A stretch of DNA of 34,652 nucleotides from an uncultured Planctomycetaceae bacterium. Lineage in GTDB: Bacteria; Planctomycetota; Planctomycetia; Planctomycetales; Planctomycetaceae. Under the pieces are notes generated by a model. The model saw only the letters and a program-made list of their open reading frames with translations. It was not told where the DNA came from and ran no database searches. Numbering within the stretch: position 1 is the stretch's first letter; each line of letters begins with the position of its first letter. Of this stretch, positions 14,674 to 26,073 are shown one piece after another. A program made the translations under genes and the position numbers. Where the stretch lies: assembly GCA_903871805.1 (NCBI GenBank), contig CAIQIE010000288.1, positions 1-34,652 of the forward strand. Direction: 5' to 3'.

Positions 14674-17001
14674 TCAGTCCTGAATATCAGAAATCATCGT
14701 TCGATCGAATGCTGAGTGGGCGGAAGCTTCCGCTGTTTTTCCGGCACTCGCTGAGGTATGGTCAGCCTCTCTGGATGCACTTCCATCGGCCATGGGAATG
14801 TCGGCAGGCCGGTTCGCTGTGCCTGCGGAGGCACTGTTCAGCTGACCTCTTTCAAAACGCCCCCACCAGGCATCACCGTCATCGATCGTCCAGCGACCGA
14901 ACTCCGGACACTTTCTCAGCAGGTTTGCCACGTCACGAGCAGTTTGCGGCCGGTTTGCCGGATTTTTTTCCAGACACGCCAGTACGGCAGTTTCCAGTTC
15001 GGCTGATACATTCCGTCCCAGACGCTGCGAGGGCGGAGTGGGTGCTTCCATAATGTGCATGCGCAGCAGATCCACGAGGTTGGAAGAGACAAAGGGCGGG
15101 TGGCCAGTCAGCAGGTAATAGGCAGTTGCACCTACGGCATAAAGGTCGCTTCGCGCATCGACCAGTGCTGGTGCGTTGATGCCCTCTGGAGAGATATATA
15201 AGGGTGTGCCAGTGAGTGAATTTGCAGCAGTCATGCCTGCCTGCTTTTTCTCGTCCAGGGCCTTGACCAGACCAAAATCCAGCACTTTGATTACGTCCGG
15301 CAGACCACCACGGCGATTCAGCATAATGTTGGCGGGCTTGATGTCTCTGTGAACCAAACCTTTACTGTGGGCTTCAAACAGAGAACCACAGATCTGCAGC
15401 AGCAGGTGGATCACTCGACTTTCCGGCAGTGGCCCGGCCTGACTTATAAGGTTTTCCAGGTTAATTCCGTCGAGAAACTCCATCGCGTAGTAGAAAACGC
15501 CCTCCGGGGTCCGCCCATAATCGTAAATTGCAATCGTATTGGGGTTATTCAGCTGGCAGGTAATCTGCACTTCGCGTTCAAATCGGGCGACCGATCCGGC
15601 GTTGATCTTTTCTATATCCAGCAGCTTGATGGCCGTTGGTCGTCGCAGCATGGCATGTCGACCCTTGTAAACGACTCCCATTGCGCCTTGTCCAAGTTTC
15701 TCCAGCAATTCGTATTGTCCCACCTGCTTAGCGGCAACAGTGGCTTTGCGAGCTTCACGCTGCAAACGTGACACGATGATCGTGAAGGTGAAAATTGCGA
15801 TGGAGCTCATAACCAGCAGGCTAAAAAGAACTTCAAAAGTACGCTGCAGAATCGTGAGTGGTCGGTAGGCTTCTTCATGATCTATTTCCGTCGCGACGCC
15901 GATGTCGTAATCTGACAGCCACTTCCATGCCCCCACGACAGTTACCCCACGGTAATCACGGTAGCCATCAAGATCGAAGTTGGCAGAGTTATCCAGAGCA
16001 GCCTGTACCATGCGTGTCAGTGGCATGTCGCGTCGAAGTGTTGTTGGCCGAAATCCTTCAACAAGGTTGCCCTGTGGTGCGGTCAGCTGAATTGTCAGCA
16101 TGGAAGAACTGCCGTCTTCCTGAGGCACAAGTCCCAGCAGCTTCAGCTCCTCATCAAATCGGCTGTTGGATACCATCAGGCCTCGGCGATTGAATGCATA
16201 GGTCTCTCCTGATTTCCCAAGTTGTCCGAGCTGCAGGATCTCCGTAAACTCTTCCTCCGGGCGTATCTGAAGTGCCAGAACACCGATCACCTGAAAATTG
16301 TCGTCGCGGACAGGCGACACGGCATACATTACGGGCATATCCGTGTGATACTTGCCTCCGGAAGATTTCATCAGCGAGACACTGCGGAACGGCACCGACA
16401 CTGTGCTCTGTCCATCAAGGGCTTTTGTCATGAATGACTCAAATAAAGTAATCTCCGATTGCCCGATCAGAGTATGGTCAGATGCTGACAGGATTCGTCG
16501 AGTCTTGTCGGCGAGAATGTAGTCCGTATACCGATACGATGACATCATGGGACTTAACTGACGGTCCAGATCCCTGTGCAGCGAATCCGCTGTGGTCGGA
16601 ACTTCACCCGGTTCAGCCGACGCTAACGGCAGATCTTCGTTGGCCAGCAACTTCGTCAATCTTCGGATCTCATTCGAATTTGCAGCCGACTGCACGTGCG
16701 ACTGCTGTACCTGAAACCAGTTTTGCAGCATGGCAACTTCCACGTGCAGCAGCGTTTGAAGTCCGGAACGCAGGTTATCCCGCATCGTGGCTTCTATTGC
16801 AGAACGAACCAGAAAGCCTACCGTCCCCAGAATCGTGACGGCAATGATTGGCCAGATCCAGAGGTTCCTTCGCAGAAAGACACTGGTTGCCTGTACCGTT
16901 CCCGACAAAGAGTTGCTGGCCCATGTCATCCGCGCGGCATGGCGGGAATTGTGTACAGAGGCTTCTGCCTGATTCTTTCGCAGGAGATTGAATGGATTCA
17001 C
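14674..17001 (-). CDS. Membrane sensor Ser/Thr protein kinase with extracytoplasmic Cache-like domain
   Basis: Hanks-type kinase of 775 residues. Order: cytoplasmic N-terminus; transmembrane helix about 49-66; an extracytoplasmic sensor of about 320 residues that resembles a double Cache domain (for example YRYTDYILADKTRRILSASD, GKSGETYAFNRRGLMVSNS, GAWKWLSDYDIGVATEID); second helix about 391-411; then the kinase. The kinase has the glycine loop GQGAMG (437-442), catalytic Lys459, HRDIKPAN (551-558), DFG (575-577) and GTPLYISPE, so it should be active. The C-terminal 70 residues are Ala/Ser-rich. This is the layout of bacterial chemoreceptor-like sensors with a kinase output, so a small-molecule ligand is likely but unknown. 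It lies 256 bases downstream of the sigma54 activator in the same direction. Confidence 0.93.
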   Translation of the reverse strand: MNPFNLLRKNQAEASVHNSRHAARMTWASNSLSGTVQATSVFLRRNLWIWPIIAVTILGTVGFLVRSAIEATMRDNLRSGLQTLLHVEVAMLQNWFQVQQSHVQSAANSNEIRRLTKLLANEDLPLASAEPGEVPTTADSLHRDLDRQLSPMMSSYRYTDYILADKTRRILSASDHTLIGQSEITLFESFMTKALDGQSTVSVPFRSVSLMKSSGGKYHTDMPVMYAVSPVRDDNFQVIGVLALQIRPEEEFTEILQLGQLGKSGETYAFNRRGLMVSNSRFDEELKLLGLVPQEDGSSSMLTIQLTAPQGNLVEGFRPTTLRRDMPLTRMVQAALDNSANFDLDGYRDYRGVTVVGAWKWLSDYDIGVATEIDHEEAYRPLTILQRTFEVLFSLLVMSSIAIFTFTIIVSRLQREARKATVAAKQVGQYELLEKLGQGAMGVVYKGRHAMLRRPTAIKLLDIEKINAGSVARFEREVQITCQLNNPNTIAIYDYGRTPEGVFYYAMEFLDGINLENLISQAGPLPESRVIHLLLQICGSLFEAHSKGLVHRDIKPANIMLNRRGGLPDVIKVLDFGLVKALDEKKQAGMTAANSLTGTPLYISPEGINAPALVDARSDLYAVGATAYYLLTGHPPFVSSNLVDLLRMHIMEAPTPPSQRLGRNVSAELETAVLACLEKNPANRPQTARDVANLLRKCPEFGRWTIDDGDAWWGRFERGQLNSASAGTANRPADIPMADGSASREADHTSASAGKTAEASAHSAFDRTMISDIQD

Positions 17002-17257: not shown

Positions 17258-18829
17258 CTAATCGTCCTGATTTTCAAGGCCCTCAGCCTGGTCTGACTTT
17301 GCCCGCACCGTTCTGCGATCCAGCTGCAACAACTTCGCAGCCTTCTCGAAACTCTTTGTCTGGCGATAAGCAAACCGACAATAACGCTGCAGCAGTTCAT
17401 CTGCGGTCAGTCTGAGTTCCTGCATCCCGCGGGCTGTGGTCAGAATCTCAGCCGAGCATCCTGAATCATCCAACAGGTGCGATGCCCGTCCGCCCGGCGT
17501 CCATGGGGAATATGCCCCGCAGATAATCACGTTTCTGACGCATTGTTCCAGTTCACGAATATTCCCCGGCCAGCGATAGGCGTCGGGCAGATTTCCGTGA
17601 ATCCACTGCAGTACTTCCGCCGTAATGGCTTCGCTCTCTTCCGGAACCATGCGGCCCACAACCTGGGCGACCAGGTCAGCCAGCATCCGGGGATTGTCTT
17701 CCACCTGCGATGTAAGAGATGGCGTTTCGATAACATCCGAGCACAGACGGTAATACAGGTCCTCCCGAAATGTCCCGGCTTCAATTTCGTATCGCAGATC
17801 ACGGTTCGTCGCCGCAATGACCTTTCCCTCAAACTCGCGAATCTTTGTTTCCCCCAATCTCTGAAACTGACGGTTCTGCAGCACTCTGAGCAATTTGACC
17901 TGTGTCGCTGCGGTGAGTTCACCAATTTCGTCCAGCAGCACTGTGCCATGTTCACCACAGGCCTCCAGCCACCCCACTCGCGCGGAAACCGCATCGGTGA
18001 ACGCACCCTTCGCATGGCCAAACAACTCCGACTCCACCAGATTGGCAGCAAAGGCTGAAACATTGATCGCCGAGTAAACGTCATGCGGCTGGACCTCAAA
18101 CCGTTGCTCACGCACAACAAACGGAATTCGCCGCGACAGGCCAATTGCTCGAGCGACCAATTCCTTACCGCTGCCGCTGGGGCCTGAAATCAATGTCGTA
18201 ATCGCCGACATCGAGCGAACAAGTGTGCGGCGGTAACGTCGCAGATCATGCGTAAAAATTGATTGCCAGATTCGCTCCCGCAGTCTCGCTGCTGGACGTG
18301 ATCGTCCAATGACGGAGTCAAAGATGCTGAAAAACGCGCGGTAGATCTGATGAAATAACTCAAACAGAGAGACCTTCTGGTCCAGTGAAGGGAGCTGTAT
18401 CCCGGTCAGTTTCATGCGATTGTCGAATTGTCCGGAAAATCTTTCCCACGCCTTCCGGTCAATCGTGGCCTGATTCTCCGGCAACTGCGTGCGCCCTCCC
18501 CAGTACTCCAGCATATCGTAAAACAGAACATAGTTGGCAAGCTCCTCGTAGACCAGCAACTGCTCGTCACTGCCTGTTGCACCGTCCTGCAGCCGGGCAC
18601 GAACAGCGTCAGCCAGTGCTCGCGCTCTGTCCAGAATCAGGATCAGGTTTGAGCGTCGATTCAATGTTTGTTCCGGAGTCAGGCTCCAGAAGGGATCCGC
18701 CTCCGGGACGAAATCGTCTCCTAACGCCTCCTGCTCCAGCACCATTCGCTCTGTGCTAAAGGGATTGGTGTAGTTCAGACTTCCTACCGCACGAGCAAAT
18801 CGGAGATCCTTTGCCGGAATCAATGCCAT
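17258..18829 (-). CDS. Sigma54-dependent transcriptional activator (AAA+ enhancer-binding protein)
   Basis: Uses ATP to remodel sigma54-RNA polymerase at -24/-12 promoters. The 523-residue product has an N-terminal region of about 200 residues with no receiver, GAF or PAS signature I can recognise. The AAA+ domain follows: Walker A GPSGSGKE (216-223), the sigma54-contact loop as GAFTDA (275-280, where GAFTGA is usual), Walker B GTVLLDEIGE (295-304), ATN sensor (340-342), FREDLYYRL (354-362) and WPGNIRELEQ. A C-terminal Fis-like helix-turn-helix (SFEKAAKLLQLDRRTVRAK) binds enhancer DNA. GGGAG lies eight bases before ATG. It is divergent from the VIT/vWA gene, whose upstream region carries a -24/-12 sequence, so that gene is its likely target. 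Confidence 0.94.
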   Translation of the reverse strand: MALIPAKDLRFARAVGSLNYTNPFSTERMVLEQEALGDDFVPEADPFWSLTPEQTLNRRSNLILILDRARALADAVRARLQDGATGSDEQLLVYEELANYVLFYDMLEYWGGRTQLPENQATIDRKAWERFSGQFDNRMKLTGIQLPSLDQKVSLFELFHQIYRAFFSIFDSVIGRSRPAARLRERIWQSIFTHDLRRYRRTLVRSMSAITTLISGPSGSGKELVARAIGLSRRIPFVVREQRFEVQPHDVYSAINVSAFAANLVESELFGHAKGAFTDAVSARVGWLEACGEHGTVLLDEIGELTAATQVKLLRVLQNRQFQRLGETKIREFEGKVIAATNRDLRYEIEAGTFREDLYYRLCSDVIETPSLTSQVEDNPRMLADLVAQVVGRMVPEESEAITAEVLQWIHGNLPDAYRWPGNIRELEQCVRNVIICGAYSPWTPGGRASHLLDDSGCSAEILTTARGMQELRLTADELLQRYCRFAYRQTKSFEKAAKLLQLDRRTVRAKSDQAEGLENQDD

Positions 18830-18981: not shown

Positions 18982-18997
18982 GTCGTTTGTTTTCTTT

Positions 18998-19013
18998 TGG
19001 CATCGGAAGTGCA
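18998..19013 (+). promoter_or_regulatory. Sigma54 (-24/-12) promoter of the VIT/vWA gene
   Basis: TGGCATCGGAAGTGCA matches the consensus TGGCAC-N5-TTGCA at the invariant GG and GC pairs with the exact spacing required. Mismatches are T for C at the sixth base and G for T before TGC. With GC at -13/-12, transcription would begin near 19024, giving a leader of about 40 bases before the ATG at 19065. The adjacent divergent gene encodes a sigma54 activator, which strengthens the call. Confidence 0.65.
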
Positions 19014-19064: not shown

Positions 19065-21272
19065 ATGAAAAAGGATTCAATGTTGCGTCGTATGGCCATC
19101 AGGATGGCCATTTTTCTCGGGGCCGCACTGCTCACCTCGCGGGCGTCAGTTGTCGCCTCCGGACTGCTGATCGCCGATGGAGGTTCTGGTGGCATCCTCG
19201 AAATTCAAAGCCACGAAGTGTCTGTGATGATCAACAATGGTATCGCGGTAACAGAAGTGCGGCAGGTGTTTCGAAACACCGAACAACGTGTGGTTGAGGC
19301 GCTCTACACATTTCCCGTTCCCAACAATGCCAGTGTCAGCAATTTCAGCATGATCATCAATGGCAAAGAGATGATCGGGGAAGTGGTGGAGAAGAAGCGT
19401 GCGCGTCAGATCTACGACAGCTACAAAGCGGTGAAGCGAGATCCGGGTCTGCTGGAACAGGTCGACTACCGCACTTTTGAGTTGCGGATCTTTCCGATTG
19501 CCGCCGGTGCGGAGCAGCACATTAAAGTGACCTATTGCCAGCAACTGGACTTCGATCATGACAACGCCACATGGGTTTATCCTCTGGCCACGACAACACG
19601 CCCAGGGCTGGATCAGAAAGTTCACGGCAAGTTTGCCCTTACTGTTGATGTGAAGAGCGAAATTCCCATCACCAGGGTCTTCAGCCCTTCTCATGAAGAT
19701 GATTTTGTCATCTTCAGTCACGATCCGAAGTACACGCGTGCCAGCATGGAAACGGAAGGTTCAGACCTCAGCCGTGATGTGGTCATCAGCTTCGACACAG
19801 AACGACCGCGTACCGGTATTGATGTGATCACATCACGTCAGCAGAGTGGCGAAGATGGCTACTTCATGCTGACAATGACGGCCGGTAAAGAGCTGGAAGA
19901 ATATGGTGCCGGGATGGACTACGTCTTCCTGGTGGATATCTCCGGAAGTATGGCGAATGACAGCAAACTGGCTCAGTCACGTGCCACGGTTGATTCTTTT
20001 ACTGACGCCCTTGGAAATGAGGATCGCTTTGACATTCTGACGTTCAGCAGTGTCCCGGAGATGCATTTCGGTACTCTGACTGCTGCTGATGACAAAACAC
20101 GTGCATCAGCTAAGGAATACCTTGCTTCGAAGAAGGCTCGTGGGGGTACCGTTTTGCGTCCGGCACTGCAGACGGCCTACAAGTATCGCAATCCGGACCG
20201 ACCGCTGAATGTGGTGTTGCTGTCCGATGGGATGACGGAGCCTCAGGAGCAAACAGAGCTGCTGAAGCTGATCTCTGAAGCCCCGACGGGTACTCGCGTG
20301 TTCTGCATCGGAATCGGTAATGAAGTCAATCGCCCGCTGCTTCGCCAGATGGCCGAGGGGGCCGGTGGTCTGGCGGCGTTTGTTTCCATGGAAGATGACT
20401 TTGCCCGCCAGGCGCAGTTGTTTCGCCGAAAGTTAATGCGCCCCGTTGCGACAGACGTGACTATTGAGGTCAAAGGAGTGGACCTTGCCGATGTGACTCC
20501 GGAGAAGCTTCCGGATTTGTTCTACGGAGCCCCGCTGCGACTTTTCGGCAGGTACAAATCGTCAGGCAATGCGGAAGTCACTATTCGTGCCAATGTGATG
20601 GGACAGCCCACAACACAAACCGTGTCCGTGAATCTGCCCGAAGTCAATAATGCGAATCCCGAGATTGAACGGATGTGGGCTTTGGAGCAGGTGCAGCAAC
20701 GCATGGGGCTGATTCGCCAGAAAGGTGAGTCTCCTGAACTTGTGCAGGGAATCGTAGCATTGTGCGAAGGGTATTCGATCGTCAGTGAATACGCCTCATT
20801 CATTGTTCTGGAGAACGACAGCGAGTACCAGCGATGGTCCATCGAACGTCGCAATCTGAACCGCGTTCAGCGTGACGAAGCCGCTCACCAGAAATTGCAG
20901 CAGGAACTTCAGGCTATTCGCGAAAAATCGCTCGCCAACCTCGGTCCTGCTGATGCTGCCACACCGACATCAGCCAGTCCGGATACGAGTGCTGATTCGG
21001 CCGCCAGTGCTCCGCAGGCATCTCAGCCGACTGGACAGCCGGGGAATGCACCGACTGTCCAGCAGACCACTCCGACTGACCTGAACTGGTCACGCCCGCA
21101 GCAAACGAACGCTCCTCAGCAAAGTCCACAACCGTCGCAATCACGCAGGCCGAGCTTTGGTGGTGGCGGTGGTGGTGGTGCCGTTGATCCGATCACCGGA
21201 CTGATGGCTGTCGGACTCGCCGGAGCCGCTTTTGCAGCCCGTCGAAGAAACCGCAACCATGGGAAGTCATAG
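19065..21272 (+). CDS. VIT/von Willebrand A surface protein with GlyGly-CTERM-like tail
   Basis: The 735-residue product has a signal peptide (MKKDSMLRRMAIRMAIFLGAALL..., to about residue 32). A VIT domain follows at about 40-165 (VSVMINNGIAVTEVRQVFRN, YTFPVPNNASVSNFSMIING), as in inter-alpha-trypsin inhibitor heavy chains. The vWA domain spans about 285-455, with a complete metal site DISGS (Asp291, Ser293, Ser295) that could bind ligands through a divalent ion. A Pro/Gln/Thr/Ser-rich linker (about 640-697) leads to seven glycines (699-705), a hydrophobic stretch (ITGLMAVGLAGAAFAA) and RRRNRN. This tripartite tail matches the GlyGly-CTERM type recognised by rhombosortase, and a rhombosortase-like gene follows. 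GGGAG seven bases before ATG 19065 fixes the start. It ends at a strong terminator. Confidence 0.93.
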   Translation: MKKDSMLRRMAIRMAIFLGAALLTSRASVVASGLLIADGGSGGILEIQSHEVSVMINNGIAVTEVRQVFRNTEQRVVEALYTFPVPNNASVSNFSMIINGKEMIGEVVEKKRARQIYDSYKAVKRDPGLLEQVDYRTFELRIFPIAAGAEQHIKVTYCQQLDFDHDNATWVYPLATTTRPGLDQKVHGKFALTVDVKSEIPITRVFSPSHEDDFVIFSHDPKYTRASMETEGSDLSRDVVISFDTERPRTGIDVITSRQQSGEDGYFMLTMTAGKELEEYGAGMDYVFLVDISGSMANDSKLAQSRATVDSFTDALGNEDRFDILTFSSVPEMHFGTLTAADDKTRASAKEYLASKKARGGTVLRPALQTAYKYRNPDRPLNVVLLSDGMTEPQEQTELLKLISEAPTGTRVFCIGIGNEVNRPLLRQMAEGAGGLAAFVSMEDDFARQAQLFRRKLMRPVATDVTIEVKGVDLADVTPEKLPDLFYGAPLRLFGRYKSSGNAEVTIRANVMGQPTTQTVSVNLPEVNNANPEIERMWALEQVQQRMGLIRQKGESPELVQGIVALCEGYSIVSEYASFIVLENDSEYQRWSIERRNLNRVQRDEAAHQKLQQELQAIREKSLANLGPADAATPTSASPDTSADSAASAPQASQPTGQPGNAPTVQQTTPTDLNWSRPQQTNAPQQSPQPSQSRRPSFGGGGGGGAVDPITGLMAVGLAGAAFAARRRNRNHGKS

Positions 21273-21307
21273 CAGGCTGATCTGGCGTACCTGACGAAGG
21301 CCGCGTG

Positions 21308-21338
21308 TCCCGAGCGGTTGATGCCGCTCGGGATTTTT
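21308..21338 (+). terminator. Rho-independent terminator between the VIT/vWA and rhomboid genes
   Basis: A perfect 10-bp stem, TCCCGAGCGG (21308-21317) with CCGCTCGGGA (21324-21333), closes a 6-base loop and is followed by five T residues (21334-21338). It lies 35 bases after the VIT/vWA stop and 41 bases before the rhomboid start. It would lower, but need not abolish, read-through into the protease gene. Confidence 0.88.
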
Positions 21339-21379
21339 CTGCTTGTGGATTTGACCTTGGAAGACGGCTGGAGATTCCC

Positions 21380-22111
21380 GTGAACACAACTGCTCTGAAC
21401 GCCTCCGCGGTTGCAGGATCGGCTGCCAATGCATCAGGGAGATCCGCTGGTTGCCAGCATACCTGTTCTGCTAACGAGTCTGCTTTAGCGTCTGCTGTTT
21501 CGGTGCCTGTGGAACTCATCACAAACGCGATTCAGTGGGTTAAGCTGACTCGGAAAGTTCCGATTTGCCTGCTCATTTCCCTGTTCTGCCTTGTACTTCA
21601 CTACGCGACGGCTTTTCAAAGTCCTGCTGAATTTCACTTTGGCAGGTTCGACATTCAGAACCCACTCCCATTGTTGACGTGTCACTGGCTGCACTGGTCG
21701 GACAGTCATTTGTTCTGGGATCTGGTGGTTTTTGCCATCGTTGGCATGCTCTGCGAATTTCTGTACCCGAAGCATTTTTGGCGGACGCTGTTGTCGTCGT
21801 CGATCCTGATTCCTCTGCTGGTGATGATCTCCGAGCCGCAGTTGTTATGTTATCGTGGCTTGAGCGGCCTGGATTCCGCACTGGTCGCACTGCTGGTGAC
21901 CAGGCTGCTGCTGGAAGACATCCGGCGACGTAATTCGCAGGGCATCGCGATGTTTTCGATCTTCCTTGTCCTGCAGTTTTTGAAGATCGCTGCCGAAGTG
22001 TTGGTGCAAGGGAATCTGTTTGTGACGAACGGGGACTTTATTCCGGCCCCACTGGCCCATCTCACTGGTGCCAGCATTGGATGCTGTATTGGCCTGTGGC
22101 GTCGCGGCTGA
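21380..22111 (+). CDS. Rhombosortase-like rhomboid intramembrane protease
   Basis: Intramembrane serine protease of the rhomboid family, 243 residues. After a polar Ala/Ser-rich N-terminus of about 57 residues come about six hydrophobic segments. HWLHWSDSHLFWDLVVF (102-118) matches the loop/helix containing the conserved His/Asn-type positions. YRGLSGLDSALVAL (158-171) holds the catalytic serine (Ser162), and PLAHLTGASIG (224-234) holds the catalytic histidine (His227). The short length, the YRGLSG context and the lack of extra domains point to the rhombosortase subgroup, which cleaves GlyGly-CTERM tails; such a tail ends the preceding gene's product. The frame opens at 21305 inside the terminator; GTG 21380 with GGAG six bases upstream is the likelier start. 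The subgroup assignment is inferred from motifs. Confidence 0.85.
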   Translation: MNTTALNASAVAGSAANASGRSAGCQHTCSANESALASAVSVPVELITNAIQWVKLTRKVPICLLISLFCLVLHYATAFQSPAEFHFGRFDIQNPLPLLTCHWLHWSDSHLFWDLVVFAIVGMLCEFLYPKHFWRTLLSSSILIPLLVMISEPQLLCYRGLSGLDSALVALLVTRLLLEDIRRRNSQGIAMFSIFLVLQFLKIAAEVLVQGNLFVTNGDFIPAPLAHLTGASIGCCIGLWRRG

Positions 22112-25305: not shown

Positions 25306-26073
25306 GTGGCGATTTATCAACGCATTTTTATTCTGCTGCTGGCGGGGCTGCAGTGCTCTTTCGTGATGGCCGACACCCTCCTGATCGACGATTTCTCGAC
25401 AAACCTGTTGTTTCGTAATCAGAATGGCTCGGGTGGCCAGGGCGTGTTCGGAACAGTGGTATCAGAATACTTGGGGGACCCGGATTATCAGATCAATCTT
25501 GGAGAGACGAACACCGCATTATGGCAGGATTCAGGCAGTGGAATCATCAGTACCACGCGAAAGGGGTTTGCCTCAATCTCGAGTAAGCCTGGCTCGGGTG
25601 CCTACTTTAGCATCAGCGGTGGCCTACTTTCGACGAACACTGACGATGACACGATTCTGTCAAGCCTCCAGATGACCTATCAGATGCCGTCCAATACAAA
25701 GATTGACATGTCGGACTGGTCATATTTCGTCATTCAGTTCGAGTCCCTCGACGCGACTGCACAGAGTCATTTACGTGTCGCGTTATCAGTTTCCGATTCT
25801 GCCATCATCGCTGACGCTGTGGCGAATCCAATGGCGACATTTTCGAATCAAAATCTTGTCGTGGGTAAAAATGCCTTCGATATGCGGGCGGCGACCATGA
25901 GGTTGGGCAATATCAAACAAGTCAGCAGCCTCTCAATTTCTATTAGCTCCGACTTACCGGGTGCTGAGTTCCGCATTGATAGTTTTTCCCTGGCGCCCAT
26001 CCCGGAACCGAGCCCGTATATCGCACTTGGAGTTGTCCTTGCCGGTTGCGTCCTGATCCGACGCCTTCGATGA
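25306..26073 (+). CDS. PEP-CTERM sorted exported protein (copy 1)
   Basis: The 255-residue product has a signal peptide (MAIYQRIFILLLAGLQCSFVMA) and a beta-rich, Ser/Asp/Asn-rich body of unknown function starting DTLLIDDFSTNL. It ends with a PEP-CTERM tail: IPEPSPY (232-238), a hydrophobic helix (IALGVVLAGCVLI) and RRLR. Proteins with this tail are cleaved and processed by an exosortase and often end up in extracellular matrix or on the surface. No exosortase gene is in the window. The start is GTG with GGAG nine bases upstream. It is a diverged paralogue of the gene at 28455-29282, sharing DDFSTNL near the N-terminus, a middle block (SLQMTYQMPS... against CLTYNFSTRQ...) and the tail layout. 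Confidence 0.85.
   Translation: MAIYQRIFILLLAGLQCSFVMADTLLIDDFSTNLLFRNQNGSGGQGVFGTVVSEYLGDPDYQINLGETNTALWQDSGSGIISTTRKGFASISSKPGSGAYFSISGGLLSTNTDDDTILSSLQMTYQMPSNTKIDMSDWSYFVIQFESLDATAQSHLRVALSVSDSAIIADAVANPMATFSNQNLVVGKNAFDMRAATMRLGNIKQVSSLSISISSDLPGAEFRIDSFSLAPIPEPSPYIALGVVLAGCVLIRRLR

Follow-up and report, generated by a model that had tools for sequence, protein, structure and literature searches.

A variant rhombosortase-type protease encoded beside a single VIT/vWA protein with a glycine-rich C-terminal tail in an uncultured Planctomycetaceae bacterium and its relatives

A contig of an uncultured Planctomycetaceae bacterium (CAIQIE010000288.1, positions 1 to 34,652, referred to below as the window) encodes a VIT/vWA protein with a GlyGly-CTERM-like tail and, next to it, a rhombosortase-type rhomboid protease. 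The closest described systems are those of Haft and Varghese, reported in 2011 (PMC3237569). According to the accessible text of that study, a rhombosortase with a single target adjoins the gene of its GlyGly-CTERM protein in 16 of 21 single-target genomes, with Rhodopirellula baltica among those listed; VIT/vWA homologues bear GlyGly, LPXTG or PEP-CTERM tails; and virtually all rhombosortases of the set carry His at the fourth position after the catalytic serine (Ser+4). The Discussion of the same paper considers that cleavage is possibly regulated and names release as one conceivable outcome. Dedicated adjacent pairs and tail swaps on VIT/vWA homologues are not new, both having been published there.

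In Vibrio cholerae, as described in the accessible text of PMC6219818, PMC11389362 and PMC13393428, VesB is cut by the rhombosortase RssP and remains surface-located, carrying a glycerophosphoethanolamine-containing group; the cut site is S381-G382-G383/S384-I385-G386-W387 (PMC11389362). For another sorting tail, PEP-CTERM, the text of PMC1569441 reports genes that are preceded by -24/-12 sites and tied to the sigma-54 activator PrsR. The main text of PMC3237569 contains none of the words sigma, RpoN and enhancer, and that of a sigma-54 regulon survey covering Planctomycetia (PMC12316311) does not mention sortase, rhomboid, von Willebrand or vWA. In the open-access literature, which leaves out most subscription journals and preprints, no link between rhombosortases and sigma-54 was found, and rhombosortases in Planctomycetes were found only in the 2011 paper.

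Here we describe what is probably a dedicated sorting pair, in which a variant rhombosortase would process the tail of the VIT/vWA protein encoded next to it. The enzyme appears to add a variant to the published picture, with SGxD[ST] in place of SGxxH and a score below the rhombosortase cut-off. The features that define the pair are as follows.

19065 to 21272, plus strand: VIT/vWA protein of 735 aa, the presumed substrate (PF08487 VIT, PF13768 VWA_3, DISGS motif)
21156 to 21269, plus strand: sorting tail of this protein, residues 698-735, read directly from the sequence as FGGGGGGG, AVDP, a hydrophobic segment and RRRNRN
21380 to 22111, plus strand: rhombosortase-type rhomboid of 243 aa, counted from GTG 21380, with Ser162, His227 and the motif YRGLSGLDSA (TIGR03902, Pfam Rhomboid, GlpG fold)

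The DNA and its translation bear out the first-pass annotation, which had described a VIT/vWA product ending in seven glycines, a hydrophobic segment and RRRNRN. The ATG at 19065 opens a 735-aa product with the N-terminus MKKDSMLRRMAIRMAIFLGAALLTSRASVVASG, signal peptide-like as judged by eye, and the C-terminus RRPSFGGGGGGGAVDPITGLMAVGLAGAAFAARRRNRNHGKS. In Pfam, the VIT domain (PF08487) scores 105.6 bits and VWA_3 (PF13768) 67.2 bits, and DISGS, a metal-site motif of the MIDAS type, begins at residue 291. The model of class GN sortase targets, TIGR03788, gives 256.1 bits against a cut-off of 551.65, and LPXTG is absent from the tail as read; the protein does not qualify as a target of that sortase class.

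The description of the next gene on the same strand as a small rhomboid with a GLSG serine, Ser162, and a late His227 is exact if translation starts at GTG 21380. An upstream GTG at 21305 would place a terminator-like hairpin (21307-21338) within the rhomboid gene; because this GTG just precedes the hairpin, 21380 is the likelier start. The protease scores 29.8 bits with Pfam Rhomboid (cut-off 22.6). Its structure was predicted from 21 aligned sequences with a mean pLDDT of 91.8; the best 34 PDB matches of this model are all GlpG crystal structures, and the catalytic serine in GxSG, the TM6 histidine and the predicted rhomboid fold are those of a rhombosortase. In all 20 aligned rhomboids of the same order, the GLSG serine and H188 are invariant, that is, the Ser/His dyad is kept.

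The strongest evidence for the pair comes from linkage. In a sample of 170 genomes of the order, a rhomboid match (E <= 1e-5) was present in 19; among the VIT matches listed, a close VIT homologue (at least 55% identity, one being a fragment) occurs in 17 genomes, all within these 19. The two genes are adjacent on one contig in 15 of 15 testable genomes (in G021 and G132 they lie on different contigs, near contig ends). A lack of adjacency in related genomes, which the first-pass annotation had named as a refuting outcome, was not observed. In G049 and G050, and in the second copy in G047, the rhomboid adjoins a more distant VIT protein with the tail GGGGAVEW. Distant VIT matches without a rhomboid match occur in a further 104 genomes of the order, and the glycine-hydrophobic-basic tail is absent from all 12 complete distant VIT proteins inspected (13 loci, L050-L062, of which L051 runs off its contig).

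A bacteria-wide scan of 84,980 species genomes employed the pattern YRGLSG[LIV]D[ST][AG], taken from alignment A3, and the best 80 of 146 relatives were analyzed; in this set the motif is fixed by selection, which does not hold for the neighbouring gene. A VIT/vWA gene with a GlyGly tail lies upstream on the same strand in all 73 testable loci, adjacent to the rhomboid gene by our test in 63; the seven others (L181, L202, L213, L222, L237, L243 and L248) have fewer than 530 bases before the motif. The records are titled Planctomycetota, Verrucomicrobiota, Lentisphaerota and Kiritimatiellota, with single ones labelled Desulfobulbaceae, Proteobacteria, Deltaproteobacteria and Paceibacterota, and, as all scan loci except L244 and L247 come from metagenome bins, some of these labels may be wrong.

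Such linkage across several phyla contradicts the notion of an ordinary housekeeping rhomboid that stands by chance beside a membrane-anchored VIT protein, which we regard as highly improbable. The family models point the same way: all 20 aligned rhomboids of the order match TIGR03902, at best with E 6e-36 compared with 2e-8 for the GlpG model; about the TIGR03902 cut-off is reached by 64 of the 80 scan relatives (E <= 1.2e-23, our own conversion of the cut-off); and in a TIGR03902 scan of the source genome the window rhomboid scores 75.7 bits, its other rhomboids 48.9 bits or less. What the housekeeping explanation can claim is that the window enzyme stays under the rhombosortase cut-off and that 16 of the 20 order rhomboids match the GlpG model too. 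The suggestion to score protease and tail with the respective models thus had a divided outcome: rhombosortase is the best model for the enzyme, far above the other rhomboids of the genome, but its cut-off of 84 is not reached, and the GlyGly-CTERM model TIGR03501 shows no match to the window tail.

The tail nevertheless has the GlyGly-CTERM architecture: a Gly-rich motif lacking Cys is followed by a hydrophobic segment and a basic end. At E <= 10, the variant GlyGly model TIGR03867 matches 13 of 16 tails of the order, and GGGA and DP are invariant in all 16. Among the 73 scan tails, TIGR03867 recognizes two at E <= 0.001, TIGR03501 none, and no other NCBIfam model any. The residue after GGG-[AP]-phi in these tails, as placed by a motif parser that chooses by local glycine count and whose printed rows were inspected by eye, is Asp in 62, Gly in five, Pro in two, and Glu, Ala, Asn or Thr in one each. 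Most tails follow GGG-A-phi-D-P, a form that the current GlyGly-CTERM model overlooks, and with it this group of targets; this, too, appears to be an addition to the published picture. Aligned with G383/S384 of VesB, the cut in the window protein is predicted between Gly705 and Ala706, making Asp708 the third residue after it.

The active-site variant is not confined to loci selected by motif. The TIGR03902 profile, which does not select for the residues at Ser+3 and Ser+4, was run on 392 Planctomycetota genomes; at E <= 1e-14 it found 65 places, spread over 60 genomes, and 30 of these places exceed the cut-off. Flanks were examined for 60 of the 65 places and, in addition, for G051 C28. The 30 over-cut-off places carry D[STC] at Ser+3/+4 in 18 cases, A[ST] in six, His or Asn at +4 in three, and other or unalignable residues in three. 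Unlike in the 2011 set, the prevailing form in Planctomycetota has Asp or Ala at +3. A VIT gene lies upstream in 24 of the 30, one of which (L118) has a gap of 1,100 nt; among the six without one, L107 and L123 are near contig starts, and L111, L114, L116 and L121 are not. At L111 and L114 (Planctomycetota genomes G344 and G472), the rhombosortase stands beside a 327-aa non-VIT protein with a GGG-hydrophobic-basic tail, which may be a dedicated target of another kind.

In a quick tree of 118 rhomboid domains, built with the motif columns excluded, one branch holds 91 of the 92 D-type enzymes (Asp at Ser+3) and eight other rows (SH-aLRT 87, not starred); on the other side are all six His/Asn types, a single D-type (L097, which sits on a long branch and whose partner has a GGGGGCVEW tail) and 12 other rows. 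The tree suggests that the variant enzymes are related, though not that they form a firm clade. The D-type rhomboids of L169, L170, L171 and L097 are found beside VIT/vWA proteins with GGGG[AC]VEW tails. A search of plasmids for classical rhombosortases, wanted as controls, gave no match.

An additional claim, that enzyme and tail are co-adapted, is in our view doubtful. It would have His or Asn at Ser+4 go with Gly, and Ser, Thr or Cys with Asp or Glu, as the third tail residue after the cut. Among 98 different rows with a known tail, Gly accompanies the His/Asn type in 6 of 6, and the [DA][STC] type has Asp or Glu in 82 of 92, Gly in five and other residues in five (Fisher p 4e-7); VesB likewise has Gly at the third position, G386 (PMC11389362). 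The tree, however, provides one independent contrast only, and so gives the comparison no power; the Stieleria/Neorhodopirellula/Rubripirellula loci L244, L246 and L247 combine a D-type enzyme with Gly tails, the cultured planctomycetes Neorhodopirellula pilleata (L244) and Stieleria tagensis (L247) showing GP where most tails show DP; and G386 of VesB tolerated substitution, according to the accessible text of PMC11389362. A strict Asp-Asp pairing of enzyme and tail was rejected, both on the single contrast and on tails without Asp or Glu in 10 of 73 loci (L212, L226, L227, L231, L235, L240, L244, L246, L247 and L249).

When 59 relatives were searched with a profile of the tail, 12 of them gave a match at E < 1e-3, never more than one in a genome. 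Eleven of these matches belong to known pairs; the remaining one, in G783, also has a rhomboid alongside. This last locus (L278), detected only via the tail profile, combines a GGGPIDI-tailed protein with an adjoining rhomboid carrying GLSGVASGL. The source genome contains a single VIT protein, and its next-best tail-profile match has E 0.09; since the genome is about 87.5% complete, a second target could still exist in it. Two kinds of candidates for such a target were rejected: the DNA pattern of GGA-phi-DP occurs elsewhere once, with no open frame of at least 80 aa in that reading, and the TIGR03501 matches are below cut-off, the best not at a protein end.

Of the proposal that a rhombosortase-type protease serves as the private processing enzyme of one VIT/vWA protein, the pairing itself stands, on the linkage described above and on the single VIT protein; its novelty does not, given the 2011 report. 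The proposal had also held that the protease replaces a sortase. No class GN sortase (TIGR03784, E <= 1e-5) was detected in any of the 170 order genomes, with controls positive in three Gram-positive genomes; for this reason nothing suggests a sortase replacement in this lineage, and the idea was rejected. What the locus offers beyond the first-pass annotation is the changed active-site motif, the DP of the tail and, upstream of the pair, a sigma-54 activator gene and a promoter-like site.

17258 to 18829, minus strand: sigma-54-dependent activator of the AAA+ class, 523 aa, divergent from the VIT gene (PF00158, 156 bits)
18997 to 19013, plus strand: sigma-54 -24/-12 promoter-like site, TTGGCATCGGAAGTGCA, some 50 nt upstream of the VIT ATG, from a pattern search
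21307 to 21338, plus strand: terminator-like hairpin between the VIT and rhomboid genes, a 12-pair stem followed by a T run, from a hairpin search

Pfam finds no domain in the N-terminal 200 residues of the activator, and the NCBIfam activator models matched (25 of 28 matches listed) all score far below their cut-offs, RtcR being the best at 193 of 650. A VIT gene and at least 700 bases upstream of it are present in 64 scan loci, and in 44 of these an activator homologue lies divergent from and adjacent to the VIT gene; among the order loci, 9 of 19 have the activator. Of 13 distant VIT loci searched, 11 have that much upstream sequence, and no homologue was found at these, nor at six other TIGR03902-matching places of the genome. 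The alignments extend over most of the activator length (for example, residues 1-515), which argues for one activator family. The sigma-54 contact loop of the window activator reads GAFTDA, the usual form being GAFTGA; in 48 match lines from scan loci it is GAFTGA in 26, GSFTGA in 14, GAFTDA in four and not found in four.

Sought between -250 and +150 of the start of the open frame, the promoter pattern TGGCAYN6[TG]GC is present on the coding strand of 24 among 64 loci and on the opposite strand of none; only two of 514 gene-body windows contain it (Fisher p 4e-23, a value that overstates the case because many loci are closely related). A stricter pattern gave 9/64 vs 0/514, a looser one 26/64 vs 23/514. 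Loci with and without the activator differ little in this respect (18 of 44 and 6 of 20, respectively). RpoN is encoded in the source genome. The linked activator gene and the promoter-like sites beside the pair appear to be an addition to the published picture.

Adjoining the activator gene is a Ser/Thr kinase gene (14674-17001, minus strand) with a dCache match below cut-off; as a fourth member of the locus this kinase was rejected, its N-terminal part being present in the locus of only one other organism, the nearest relative (L155/L175). Within the pair, the hairpin search over 1.1 kb returned three such sites compared with 1.5 in shuffles, and the intergenic interval as a whole folds no better than shuffles (z -1.3). 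The two nearest relatives, L175 and L176, have hairpins of different sequence at a similar position; counted over all scan loci, such hairpins occur in 7 of 73. The hairpin could keep the enzyme level under that of the substrate. Downstream, at 25306-26073 on the plus strand, a small protein ends in IPEPSPYIALGVVLAGCVLIRRLR, a PEP-CTERM tail (TIGR02595, 17.3 bits, cut-off 16), and is therefore a likely substrate of another sorting system about 3 kb downstream.

Several observations weigh against a dedicated, jointly regulated sorting pair. On the side of the enzyme, TIGR03902 gives 72.7 bits (E 3e-20) for a cut-off of 84, and SGLDS lacks the His at Ser+4 that, according to Haft and Varghese, nearly all rhombosortases have. 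No NCBIfam or Pfam sorting-tail model that matches the tail does so above its cut-off (TIGR03867: 7.5 bits with the whole protein, 13.2 bits with the 60-aa tail, cut-off 19.7). In 10 of 73 scan loci, a gap of 277-870 nt, with an open frame of at least 80 aa inside, separates the VIT gene from the rhomboid homology; a short intervening gene is therefore possible in those loci, and L118 would have room for one. With a hairpin between the genes, the pair is perhaps not one simple operon. As to regulation, 20 of 64 scan loci and 10 of 19 order loci have no activator, 40 of 64 loci do not show the promoter pattern, and the two nearest relatives, L175 and L176, carry a degraded site, TCGGCATCGGACGTGC, that is no better than shuffles.

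With these points taken into account, we infer the following scheme. The VIT/vWA protein would be exported by its signal peptide and, judging from its architecture, held temporarily in the inner membrane by the glycine-hydrophobic-basic tail. The neighbouring variant rhombosortase, to go by family resemblance and linkage, would sever the tail where the glycines end, with Gly705/Ala706 as the probable site. On the model of VesB, the new C-terminal glycine would then be joined to a lipid-type anchor of the envelope; alternatively, it would stay free. Sigma-54, acting through the divergent activator, probably turns on the pair.

On the fate of the cleaved protein, we put attachment somewhat above even. 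Rhomboids commonly just free their substrates, and it is quite conceivable, if the less favoured outcome, that the cut sheds the VIT/vWA protein into the periplasm or medium, its new end bearing no lipid. Release is among the outcomes discussed by Haft and Varghese (PMC3237569), and no conserved candidate transfer gene was noticed at the locus, where no systematic search was made for one. Shedding fits less well with VesB, the nearest studied case, which stays surface-bound with its glycerophosphoethanolamine-containing group (PMC6219818), and with the LPXTG and PEP-CTERM tails of VIT homologues (PMC3237569), which suggest that these proteins need to be attached.

A broader reading, which we consider rather unlikely in its entirety, would place a separate branch of rhombosortases with SGxD[ST] or SGxA[STC] in Planctomycetota, Verrucomicrobiota and their neighbours, each enzyme private to one VIT/vWA protein with a GGG-A-phi-[DE]-P tail and forming with it and its own sigma-54 activator a three-gene unit. 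The conserved Asp, which lies roughly one helical turn away from the catalytic Ser, might alter the catalytic site, possibly to Ser-His-Asp instead of a dyad, or might read the acidic residue of the tail.

If the attribution to a dedicated pair is right, environmental bacteria contain a rhombosortase pathway of one enzyme and one substrate, with natural variants of active site and tail available for comparison, and the rules of recognition and the fate of the cut end become testable free of a many-target background.

Among the known systems, the pairs of Haft and Varghese are the most similar, consisting of a small rhomboid beside a single GlyGly-tailed target (Rhodopirellula baltica and Opitutus terrae are listed, the identity of their targets not being stated in the accessible text), and VIT/vWA homologues are among the GlyGly-tailed proteins (legend to Fig. 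3C, PMC3237569). Unlike in that set, the residue at Ser+4 is here Ser or Thr rather than the nearly universal His, with Asp at Ser+3, and the tail is of the GGG-A-phi-D-P form, unrecognized by TIGR03501. The class GN sortase with its LPXTG-bearing VIT/vWA protein (TIGR03784/TIGR03788) is likewise a private sorting enzyme beside one VIT/vWA target, but belongs to another enzyme superfamily and acts on another tail. PrsR and the PEP-CTERM genes, as far as the text of PMC1569441 goes, share the combination of sorting-tail genes, -24/-12 sites and a link to a sigma-54 activator; they differ in having many targets, EpsH/exosortase and an activator with a receiver domain, whereas here there is one target and an activator with no recognized input domain. 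If the sigma-54 link is true, rhombosortase joins PEP-CTERM among the sorting systems tied to sigma-54. RssP and VesB, finally, share with the present pair the tripartite tail, the Ser-His rhomboid and, by analogy, the cut within the glycine motif (PMC6219818, PMC11389362); V. cholerae, in these accounts, has six GlyGly-CTERM proteins, VesB being a serine protease, whereas the enzyme described here has one adjacent VIT/vWA target.

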